From Leisingera daeponensis DSM 23529 (GTDB lineage Bacteria; Pseudomonadota; Alphaproteobacteria; Rhodobacterales; Rhodobacteraceae): 64,000 nucleotides of DNA. Each line of letters starts with the position of its first letter. Within the stretch, counting starts at the first letter, position 1. The stretch lies in NCBI RefSeq assembly GCF_000473145.1, contig NZ_KI421500.1, forward strand, positions 806,225 through 870,224, written 5' to 3'. Of this stretch, positions 19,234 to 25,882 are shown piece after piece. The position numbers and the translations under genes are program-made. The notes beneath the pieces were generated by a model, which saw only the letters and a list, made by a program, of their open reading frames with translations, was not told the DNA's origin and searched no databases.

Positions 19234-19521
19234 ATGTTTTTGAAGAAAGTCGACGGCCCGCGGGCAGTCACCCTGCCGGACGGGACCATCATGACCCGGG
19301 CGGATTTGCCGCCGGAAACGACCAAGCGCTGGGTCGCCTCGCGCAAGGCTGCGGTTGTGCGCGGCGTGCTTTACGGTCTGCTGCCGCAGACCGAGGCGAT
19401 GCGCCGCTACGGGCTGAGCGAGGAGGAATTCCGCAGCTGGGTTGCCGCTGTTGCCGACCACGGTGAAGAAGCGCTGAAAACAACACGGTTGAAGAAATTC
19501 CGCAATCCGGACGCAAAATAG
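19234..19521 (+). CDS. sciP: CtrA inhibitor SciP (DUF1153)
   Basis: A 95-residue DNA-binding protein of the SciP/DUF1153 family. In Caulobacter, SciP binds CtrA and blocks its activation of target promoters in G1. The sequence opens with KKVDGPRAVTLPDGTIMTRADLP, and the helix-turn-helix is at about residues 35-75 (RWVASRKAAVVRGVLYGLL, then YGLSEEEFRSWV). The start ATG has an AAGGGAAGA ribosome-binding tract. It is directly upstream of ctrA in the same direction, with a 117-base gap containing CtrA-type half-sites, so the activator and its inhibitor are genetically linked here. Confidence 0.9.
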   Translation: MFLKKVDGPRAVTLPDGTIMTRADLPPETTKRWVASRKAAVVRGVLYGLLPQTEAMRRYGLSEEEFRSWVAAVADHGEEALKTTRLKKFRNPDAK

Positions 19522-19638: not shown

Positions 19639-20358
19639 ATGCGCATTCTTTTGGTTGAGGATGATCCGACCACGGCGAAAAGCATCGAGCTGATGCTGAC
19701 CCACGCCAACCTGAACGTCTATTCGACGGATCTGGGCGAGGAGGGGATCGATCTGGCCAAGCTCTACGACTATGACCTGATCCTGCTGGATCTGGGGCTG
19801 CCGGATATGAACGGCCATGAGGTGCTGCGCCAGCTGCGCATGTCCCGCATCGAAACGCCCATTCTGATTCTGTCCGGAGCCGACGATACCGACAACAAAA
19901 TCAAGGGGTTCGGCTTTGGTGCGGACGACTATCTGACCAAGCCCTTCCACCGCGAGGAACTGGTGGCGCGGATCCATGCGATCATCCGCCGGTCCAAGGG
20001 CCATTCGCAGTCGATCATCAAGACCGGTAAGATCTCGGTCAACCTGGATGCCAAAACGGTTGAGGCCGATGGCAAGGCGGTGCATCTGACCGGCAAGGAA
20101 TACCAGATGCTGGAGCTGCTGTCCTTGCGCAAAGGCACCACGCTGACCAAGGAAATGTTCCTCAACCATCTCTATGGCGGCATGGATGAGCCGGAACTGA
20201 AAATCATCGACGTTTTCATCTGCAAGTTGCGCAAGAAACTCAGCAACGCGACCGGCGGCGAAAACTATATCGAAACCGTCTGGGGCCGCGGCTATGTGCT
20301 GCGTGATCCGCAGGAGGATCATATGTCCGGCGGCCAGCGGATGGCAGTCGGCGCTTGA
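19639..20358 (+). CDS. ctrA: Cell-cycle response regulator CtrA
   Basis: OmpR-type response regulator of 239 residues. The receiver domain (about 1-115) has the acidic pair Asp8-Asp9, phospho-acceptor Asp51 in [10 protein letters not shown], the Ser/Thr switch region, and Lys in [15 protein letters not shown]. The C-terminal winged helix (about 125-230) has [20 protein letters not shown] and the recognition stretch [17 protein letters not shown]. This is nearly the textbook alphaproteobacterial CtrA. In Rhodobacterales, CtrA mainly controls motility, quorum-linked traits and gene transfer agents rather than essential replication control. An intrinsic terminator follows. Confidence 0.97.
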
Positions 20359-20503: not shown

Positions 20504-24867
<4,364 letters not shown>

Positions 24868-24917
24868 GCCGCGCCCCGTCGCTTGTTCTCCGTCAATGTT
24901 CCAGCGTGTTCGCAAAT

Positions 24918-24932
24918 GTTCTCAAAAAGTTC
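24918..24932 (+). promoter_or_regulatory. Alphaproteobacterial SOS (LexA) box GTTC-N7-GTTC
   Basis: GTTCTCAAAAAGTTC matches exactly the direct-repeat LexA operator GTTC-N7-GTTC of alphaproteobacteria. It lies in an AT-rich stretch, unlike the flanking genes. Additional GTTC words lie just upstream at other spacings (24892, 24898 and 24908 region), which makes the area GTTC-rich. The first start codon downstream on the same strand is the 40-codon gene at 25016, 84 bases away. Confidence 0.7.
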
Positions 24933-25015
24933 TTTACAGGTGCCGGTAAAAATGAGAACAAAGGGGCAACAAAACTGCCAGAGAGCGAAAACACAGACTG
25001 GAGGAGGCCCGAGCC

Positions 25016-25138
25016 ATGATGACACAGATCAAAACCACGATTCAGAATGCCCATTCCACCCTGCTGCAGGACGCCATCGGCGCGGCCTCGCTGATGGTGA
25101 TGCTGGTGGCGGCGCTGCATCTGCCGGGCCTGCTCTGA
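25016..25138 (+). CDS. Small membrane protein, 40 residues, probably SOS-regulated
   Basis: A double ATG (25016 and 25019) preceded by GGAGGAGG at a good distance opens 40 codons. Residues 1-17 are polar (MTQIKTTIQNAHSTLLQD). Residues 20-40 form one hydrophobic helix (IGAASLMVMLVAALHLPGLL) that ends at the stop. It lies downstream of an exact GTTC-N7-GTTC LexA box. Size, topology and control resemble SOS-induced membrane peptides such as Caulobacter SidA (a cell-division inhibitor) or TisB-type toxins. No sequence relation to either can be claimed from inspection. The remaining 25139-25429 stretch shows nothing codable. Confidence 0.68.
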   Translation: MMTQIKTTIQNAHSTLLQDAIGAASLMVMLVAALHLPGLL

Positions 25139-25429
25139 CCCGCTGTTCCCATTCCTGAATGCCTCTGCCGTGCCGGGCCGGCCCTTTCCTGTCCCGGACT
25201 GCTTAAGGGATCAACCGCCTGTTCCGATCCCCGAATGGATTGCCTCAAGATCCAGCCTGGCCCGCCCGGGTCCCGCACAGCAGAGCATGACTGCCGCCGC
25301 CATCCTGCCCGGATGCGCGGCGGTTTTTTGTTTGAGGGGCGGATGCAACAGAAAATTCACCCCTGCATAGCTGCAAGGGCGGCCGTGGCGTTCGTTGTCT
25401 TTGGCAATCAGTGGCGCAGGACGCCGCCG

Positions 25430-25882
25430 TCAGGCGCATTGCTCCTTGGCGGCGGTCTGCATCGCTTCCAGGGTGGCGTCCAGCGCCAGCATGATGGAGG
25501 CGTGGCGGTTCTTGAACTCGCGCGCGGGTTGCAGAACTTCCAGCCCGTCAAAGGGGGCTTGCGGCACCGGGCCGTCCTGGGTCAGCATTGCCTTCAGCTG
25601 GTCGCGGGCGGTCTCCACTTCAGCCAGCGAGCGGCCGATCACATTGGCGCCGACCACAGCCGCCGCGGCCTGTCCCAGCGCACAAGCCTTCACGTCCTGG
25701 CCGAAATCCGTGATCCGCCCGTCCTCGACGCGGATGTCGACGGTGACGGTGGAGCCGCAGAGCGGGGAGCGTTTCTTGACCGTGGCATCCGGCGCGTCCA
25801 GCCGTCCAAGGTGCGGAATATCCGCCGCCAGCGCCAGAATGCGCGTAGAATACAGCTTGATCAGATCGGATTCGCCAGACAT
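25430..25882 (-). CDS. NifU/SufU-like iron-sulfur cluster assembly scaffold protein
   Basis: A 150-residue protein of the IscU/NifU N-terminal fold. Two of the usual cluster-binding cysteines are clear: RSPLCGSTVTVDIRVED (about residue 42) and VKACALGQAAAAVV (about 67). The third position, normally HC in the RHCxL segment, reads NRHASIML here. A final Cys near the C-terminus (KEQCA) is an unlikely replacement. This variant may therefore hold or transfer clusters differently from IscU, or act in another step. It is divergent from hisI, with 77 bases between starts. Confidence 0.85.
   Translation of the reverse strand: MSGESDLIKLYSTRILALAADIPHLGRLDAPDATVKKRSPLCGSTVTVDIRVEDGRITDFGQDVKACALGQAAAAVVGANVIGRSLAEVETARDQLKAMLTQDGPVPQAPFDGLEVLQPAREFKNRHASIMLALDATLEAMQTAAKEQCA

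Follow-up and report, generated by a model that had tools for sequence, protein, structure and literature searches.

A conserved LexA-type box and a membrane micro-protein gene behind recG in Rhodobacteraceae: a candidate SOS-controlled division brake

The 40-residue open reading frame located directly after recG in Leisingera daeponensis DSM 23529 is a real gene under clear purifying selection, and the conservation of the GTTC-N7-GTTC box in front of it is beyond chance, given the comparison of relatives. The peptide is probably switched on by DNA damage and is a candidate division brake of Rhodobacteraceae. The DNA analysed, called the window from here on, is a stretch of 64,000 nucleotides, and an earlier note on it had proposed a LexA-controlled membrane peptide of the kind that stops division. 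This interpretation is partly supported: the gene, the box and the setting were right, and the function is one that we infer. The box class shared with recA and lexA, as well as the sciP-ctrA setting, strengthens that reading.

The micro-protein gene, its setting and its conservation

The gene occupies positions 25016-25138 of the plus strand, where an ATGATG start opens 40 codons for the 40-aa peptide MMTQIKTTIQNAHSTLLQDAIGAASLMVMLVAALHLPGLL, modelled as a single helix. A ribosome-binding site, GGAGGAGG, can be read from the window sequence at 25000-25007 (+). The double start and the ribosome-binding site are as the earlier note had described them, and the same holds for the place of the gene directly after ligA and recG. 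The recG gene (22777-24867, +, NCBIfam equivalog) lies directly upstream, preceded by ligA (20528-22780, +), by ctrA, encoding the cell-cycle response regulator (19639-20358, +, NCBIfam NF045991), and by sciP, encoding the CtrA inhibitor (19234-19521, +, NCBIfam NF051866). Where a named locus extends 6500 bases or more upstream of the box, ligA-recG is present in 25/25 cases, and sciP and ctrA are found as well, on the same strand, in 23/25; with at least 4800 nt upstream, ligA is present in 42/43 named loci. The recG C-terminus is encoded directly upstream in 108/112 loci, and no recG match was obtained in L256, L271, L310 and L311, each of which has 500 bases upstream. Downstream of the peptide gene lies an iron-sulfur scaffold-like gene, which has a relative in 85 of the 92 loci that extend 1500 bases or more in that direction. 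Since sciP-ctrA-ligA-recG are kept upstream, the peptide gene is part of a neighbourhood of cell-cycle and repair genes that is conserved. Concerning CtrA, it is described as controlling gene transfer agents in Rhodobacter capsulatus (PMC6473078).

A search with the single peptide matched 31/61 genomes, namely 21/21 of Leisingera (own genome counted), 10/16 of other Rhodobacteraceae genera and 0/24 of other families. With a profile built from 59 copies, the peptide was found in 251/295 sampled Rhodobacteraceae genomes, and with a smaller profile of 14 copies in 248/295; both gave one match per genome among the matches listed. The peptide is common to 250/294 sampled Rhodobacteraceae genera, and a class-wide search of 289 genomes returned four matches, all of them in Rhodobacteraceae and none in the sampled other families. 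The loci compared below were selected by the peptide from the stronger listed matches of the 14-copy profile, and the set leans to well-conserved copies. It contains 117 loci, including four duplicates (L024-L027) whose removal leaves 113 distinct genomes; the terminator, residue and recG counts refer to 112 loci, that is, 117 minus L024-L027 and L028.

Within the genus, pN/pS is 0.107 (pN 0.035, pS 0.327; 190 pairs, 20 same-genus copies) and the variable sites at codon positions 1, 2 and 3 of these copies number 14, 1 and 32, respectively. This count covers 20 of the 21 same-genus copies, L017 being excluded because a contig end cuts it. The Rhodobacteraceae-wide pN/pS is 0.54, but its pS of 0.64 approaches saturation, and for this reason the analysis relies on the genus value alone. 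Regarding length, 99 of 117 copies (the four duplicates counted) have 40 aa, 10 have 39, seven have 42 and one has 36. D19, G22, L34 and P37 are present in 100/100 aligned copies, L26 in 99, L30 in 97 and T15 in 94; these counts cover 100 of the 112 peptides, with the 12 of other lengths or offsets excluded. Weaker members outside the aligned set deviate, with S replacing G22 in genome G202 and P37 absent in the G194 and G072 peptides. The 36-residue form is also without P37. The periodicity expected of one conserved helix face is marginal: p is 0.016 with the angle fixed at 100 degrees and 0.085 when 90-110 degrees are allowed.

The AlphaFold2 model consists of one helix (pLDDT 86, pTM 0.46). 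The earlier note had placed a single membrane helix at the C-terminus; the single helix stood, and its C-terminal confinement did not, as the modelled helix spans residues 2-39 and only its hydrophobic part starts from about residue 16. The position of D19 is where this hydrophobic part begins, and the 19-residue hydropathy maximum is 1.92. No K or R occurs beyond residue 22 in 111/112 copies, and the first 17 residues carry a positive net charge in 85 copies, no net charge in 25 and a negative one in two (n = 112); the N-terminus is probably inside. The predicted product is a very small single-pass membrane protein, with 40 aa and one predicted helix.

Up to E 1, Pfam, NCBIfam, PHROGs and PADLOC returned nothing for the window peptide, in line with the suggestion of the earlier note that the gene may be undescribed. 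For other members, library matches were scattered and weak (DUF826 in 1/59 members, best E 0.0077; HTH_11 in 3/59, best E 0.027), and the micro-protein is so far without a name in the protein-family libraries used. Queried with the single peptide, plasmid and phage records were negative as well. A solved-structure match (best E 6.3) was rejected as not credible. Searches of PubMed Central yielded no description of this peptide or of an sRNA behind recG.

The box, the promoter and LexA

The box GTTCTCAAAAAGTTC (24918-24932, +) is an exact GTTC-N7-GTTC, as had been claimed, and the only one in the window. Such boxes are expected 1.35 times in the window and at least one is found in 73/100 shuffles, while the whole genome has 120 of them (54 forward, 66 reverse) versus 91 of the reversed pattern. 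The box alone is therefore at chance level and proves nothing, and a comparison of relatives was needed. In genomes chosen by the peptide alone, a perfect box is present up to 250 nt upstream of the start in 112/113 distinct genomes, the exception being L327 (first half GTTG), whereas the reversed control CTTG-N7-CTTG gave 0/113 in the same upstream stretches. Together with the 251/295 genomes that carry the peptide, this result answers in the affirmative the conservation search that the earlier note had proposed. In the window, the box-to-start distance is 83 bases.

The conserved element is wider than the LexA box, extending to a third GTTC, a -35 and a -10. The third GTTC half-site (24908-24911, +) begins ten bases before the box, from which N6 separates it, and GTTC is found there in 101/113 distinct genomes. 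A putative -35, TTTACA (24933-24938, +), abuts the box; TTTAC is kept in 102/113, and 10 others have TTG with varied letters, a pattern that a -35 would be expected to show. The putative extended -10, TGA-GAACAA (24953-24961, +), lies 17 nt after the -35, with TG in 107/113 and GAAC in 105/113. This -10 is without a T at -7, which is described as missing in more than 60% of -10 elements/promoters from four alphaproteobacterial species (PMC8407463). From spacing only, transcription would start at about 24968, in CAACAAA (24967-24973, +; CAAC in 93/113). The possibility that this element instead holds a promoter for the minus strand was weighed by eye and rejected: the varying -35 keeps TTG, which fits a plus-strand promoter.

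When the named genome collection was scanned with the 22-base core of the element, at least 118 stretches were returned; among those listed, the peptide is located downstream in 115 and recG upstream in 116. The exceptions among the matches listed include L102 and L135, which stop just past the core, and L092, with only 63 bases upstream. Among the matches listed, the 22-base core belongs to the recG-peptide locus. As a separate observation, a Muribaculaceae bin (L047, 5984-6005) has a core match without recG or peptide, probably by chance, and this is the only off-setting one among the matches listed.

GTTC-N7-GTTC is the published LexA motif of Alphaproteobacteria (PMC3323433, PMC12700426). 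In the genus, recA has the box GAACAAGAGGTGAAC in 19/19 genomes and lexA has GAAC-N7-GAAC, the same motif on the opposite strand, also in 19/19; a uvrD-like gene, with its start chosen by eye, is preceded by a box of this class too. Of 20 regions with boxes elsewhere in the genome, those recognised are the uvrD-like gene and a region resembling imuA/imuB. The locus L237 (1525-1550) has two overlapping boxes, GTTCCCGATTTGTTCTTTATAAGTTC, with one half-site in common, near the junction of imuA- and imuB-like frames (by eye). Furthermore, 14 recA upstreams were inspected by eye (L196, L338, L340, L342, L345-L348, L351, L352, L356, L358, L359 and L361), and 11 of these promoters present two opposed LexA-type sites, one a degenerate forward GTTC-N7-G[AG]TC, the other a perfect GAAC-N7-GAAC. 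The forward one resembles the box of the peptide gene. Regarding published sites, an in silico account for Dinoroseobacter shibae names lexA, recA, dprA and others, with recG absent from its main text (PMC6473078), and recG itself appears to be LexA-regulated in some Alphaproteobacteria (PMC3323433).

LexA was detected in 280/295 Rhodobacteraceae genomes. The 14-copy profile found the peptide in 240/280 LexA-positive versus 8/15 LexA-negative genomes (Fisher p 0.004, ancestry ignored) and the 59-copy profile in 243/280 and 8/15, respectively. The pattern GTTC-N7-GTTC-TTTAC, counted irrespective of position and with a reversed control that matches 25 times across these 295 genomes, is present in 196/280 versus 6/15 (Fisher p 0.021, ancestry ignored). 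It should be noted that many of the 15 LexA-negative genomes are poor assemblies, and the association of LexA with the peptide is weakened by them. Of the LexA-negative genomes, 14 have a recA locus, and the recA box is intact in eight of them, two of which have a partial LexA; LexA is therefore probably just missing from those assemblies, and only six genomes are informative for LexA loss. Among 15 LexA-positive controls, 13 have a perfect recA box, none was seen in G228 and the recA start was not located in G089.

The six LexA-negative genomes in which the recA box is imperfect or absent comprise three with neither peptide nor box pattern (G211, G073 and G103), one with the peptide without its promoter (G201) and two with the peptide-gene box intact and no detectable LexA (G194 and G072). 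In G201, which is 80% complete and has no detectable LexA, the peptide frame (L369) is without its usual stop and the SOS-type promoter is gone; it looks like a decaying gene. G072 is 86% complete and its recA box is one letter off. G194 is rated 100% complete, and LexA, present in 6/6 congeners, was not found in it; as the sole LexA-less genome in its genus, it may have lost LexA recently. In the same genome (L337, L363 and L371), the recA box is gone and an S24-type and Y-family polymerase pair is present, by eye. The family model does not accept the weak matches in G194 (28% identity) and G103 (27%) as LexA.

On this sequence evidence, LexA control of the peptide gene is likely. The corresponding claim of the earlier note stands as regards the conserved box and its class, the same as at recA and lexA, and has to be tempered in that the element is wider and two LexA-negative genomes keep the box. 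The GTTC repeats could instead bind another regulator, for example an activator needing direct repeats of 10-11 bp by the -35, LexA being uninvolved or secondary. The three half-sites GTTC-N6-GTTC-N7-GTTC against the -35 would suit such a protein, as would the occurrence of the 22-base core at the recG-peptide locus in all but one of the 118 stretches among the matches listed and the retention of the element in the LexA-negative G194 and G072, neither of which has a perfect recA box. Nevertheless, the spacing and the letters are those of the published alphaproteobacterial LexA box (PMC3323433, PMC12700426), the related forward GTTC-N7-G[AG]TC is present in 11/14 recA promoters (by eye) and the promoter was lost in the LexA-negative G201, so this alternative is unlikely. 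CenR, the sole other regulator looked up, was dropped as a direct-repeat binder, its motif being TGA-N8-TGA (PMC9275681). Along with LexA control, the conserved promoter element may have a second function.

The transcript and its 3' UTR

An intrinsic terminator, CCGCCGCCATCC...GGATGCGCGGCGGTTTTTT (25294-25329, +), would close a transcript of about 360 nt in the window, counted from the putative start. By a simple rule, a terminator of such kind is found in 106/112 loci, where it ends 106-274 bases past the stop, and its stem is kept despite changes on both sides. The tests of the 3' UTR cover these 106 loci, with the 6/112 without a recognised terminator excluded. CTGTCCC is present in 84/106 UTRs versus 3.7 expected, and CTGCCTG in 89/106 versus 2.5 expected, both expectations coming from single-base shuffles; the copies of CTGTCCC per UTR range from 0 (22/106) to 3. 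In the window, the motif appears as CCTGTCCC (25188-25195, +), where the minimum-energy fold closes UGUCCC, a loop of six bases, with a 3-bp stem. It is followed by the hairpin GGGATC-AACCGCCTGTTCC-GATCCC (25207-25231, +), whose outer stem is in the minimum-energy fold and whose loop, partly paired, holds a motif variant. Hairpins with the motif in the loop were found across genera.

Over 171 sites, TGTCC is placed in hairpin loops above shuffled flanks (mean stem score 6.74 versus 5.43), and stem scores of at least 7 are reached in 47% versus 19% in shuffled flanks. The same test for CTGCCTGC gave no stem enclosure beyond chance (3.75 versus 4.19 shuffled). When the alignment is made without regard to structure, 289/349 cells (83%) of the commonest stem are paired, while its slid versions reach 21-44% and the shuffles 78%, the largest of 500 being 81%. 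From the 83% pairing versus the 78% of the shuffles, covariation is present but modest, and three pairs further out are paired in only 102/268 cells. The fold of the window 3' UTR has z = -2.83. Whole-alignment RNAalifold of the 3' UTR found the terminator alone, and motif-centred tests were used instead. The features of a dual-function RNA were found, that is, a conserved structured non-coding part and a conserved loop motif, with the modest covariation just described. Rfam covariance models gave 0 matches up to E 1 over 24800-25450.

It could be asked whether the RNA is the main product, the 3' UTR being or yielding a regulatory sRNA whose loops are C-rich, with the peptide as a side product. 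This possibility is favoured by CTGCCTG and CTGTCCC being far above the shuffle expectation, by TGTCC in hairpin loops, by the pairing of the commonest stem and the z value, and by the 3'-UTR-derived sRNAs known in Rhodobacter sphaeroides (PMC8625941, PMC9779115). However, the protein itself is under clear purifying selection, and the variable copy number of CTGTCCC, the outer pairs that seldom form, the result for CTGCCTGC and the empty Rfam search also speak against it, which makes an RNA as main product improbable.

Proposed function and known systems

The explanation that we prefer is a one-gene SOS transcription unit, in which LexA on GTTC-N7-GTTC against the -35 would silence the promoter. 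After DNA damage, LexA would be cleaved and the short mRNA would be made and translated. The product would be an inner-membrane micro-protein of about 40 residues, with its N-terminus in and one helix, which could bind one membrane partner via T15, D19, G22, L26, L30, L34 and P37 and delay cell-cycle progress until repair is complete. The near-invariant D19, G22, L34 and P37 in one helix suggest a specific partner and not a pore. The likeliest partner would be the late divisome (FtsW/I/N), as for SidA, and the structured 3' UTR could control the mRNA or act as a small RNA. As a whole, this SOS division-brake explanation of the peptide locus is tentative, its chances falling a little short of even. 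A membrane partner with division arrest, proposed by analogy, is possible and should be held with clear reserve.

A further-reaching version would make it a family-wide checkpoint gene beside sciP-ctrA, with one LexA-controlled transcript giving both a micro-protein that would stop septation via a dedicated partner and a 3' UTR RNA that, through its CUGUCCC loops, would retune mRNAs during SOS; this is rather doubtful. SOS division inhibitors vary among bacterial groups, and none was found for Rhodobacteraceae in the PubMed Central searches. With one gene at a fixed place, widespread in Rhodobacteraceae, unnamed in the libraries used and preceded by a near-invariant damage-type promoter, how these bacteria halt division after DNA damage becomes directly testable. 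If the preferred explanation is true, an SOS gene would stand beside ctrA, and the conserved 3' UTR adds a possible small RNA.

The SOS-controlled peptide could also have the membrane as its direct target and, like TisB, lower the potential across it, with dormancy of damaged cells as the outcome. A short hydrophobic peptide under a LexA-type box and a structured mRNA are what this would require, but D19, G22, L34 and P37 are kept in 100/100 aligned copies, the gene is found as one copy in a fixed place, almost no K or R occurs past residue 22 and the single peptide has no plasmid or phage match. Moreover, no minus-strand promoter-like site for an antisense partner was found in 24860-25400 (by strict consensus, a weak test), and an action of this kind is quite improbable. 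In the weakest alternative, a constitutive respiratory or transport complex of the membrane would include the peptide as a small accessory subunit, and the place of the gene behind recG would be historical. This agrees with the wide conservation of the peptide and with near-invariant residues in one helix, which are also typical of small membrane-complex subunits, but it is very improbable in view of the damage-type box in 112/113 genomes and the conserved setting of repair and cell-cycle genes.

Concerning the division-brake explanation, four known systems can be compared with the peptide locus. TisB of Escherichia coli is a short hydrophobic peptide under LexA control, with charged residues along its membrane helix. 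The peptide described here is likewise short, hydrophobic and under a LexA-type box, whereas it occurs as one copy, has a near-invariant polar D19 and does not show a charged helix of the TisB type, 111/112 copies being without K or R past residue 22.

The UdsC sRNA of Rhodobacter sphaeroides is the 3' UTR of RSP_7527, and the RSP_7527-udsC promoter is reported to be RpoHII-dependent (PMC9779115, PMC8625941). Both loci have a hypothetical-protein gene with an RNA in its 3' UTR, regulatory in the case of UdsC and a candidate here. They differ in the promoter, RpoHII-dependent versus preceded by a LexA-type box, and RSP_7527 was compared by description only.

DidA of Caulobacter crescentus is a small damage-induced membrane protein that inhibits division, induced by DriD and independent of SOS (PMC4211646). 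The small size and the membrane location are common to both proteins, and the damage induction and division inhibition of DidA are candidate features here. Unlike DidA, which DriD induces without SOS, the peptide gene has a LexA-type box in 112/113 genomes.

Finally, SidA of Caulobacter crescentus is an SOS protein of 29 residues that interacts with FtsW (PMC4211646). The two proteins, likened by description, are alike in being very small inner-membrane proteins (as predicted here) of Alphaproteobacteria under LexA control (likely here). On the other hand, the peptide described here has about 40 residues, is confined to Rhodobacteraceae among the sampled genomes and has a conserved 3' UTR. SidA can be regarded as the nearest precedent for the peptide, and by this analogy a role in division may be considered.
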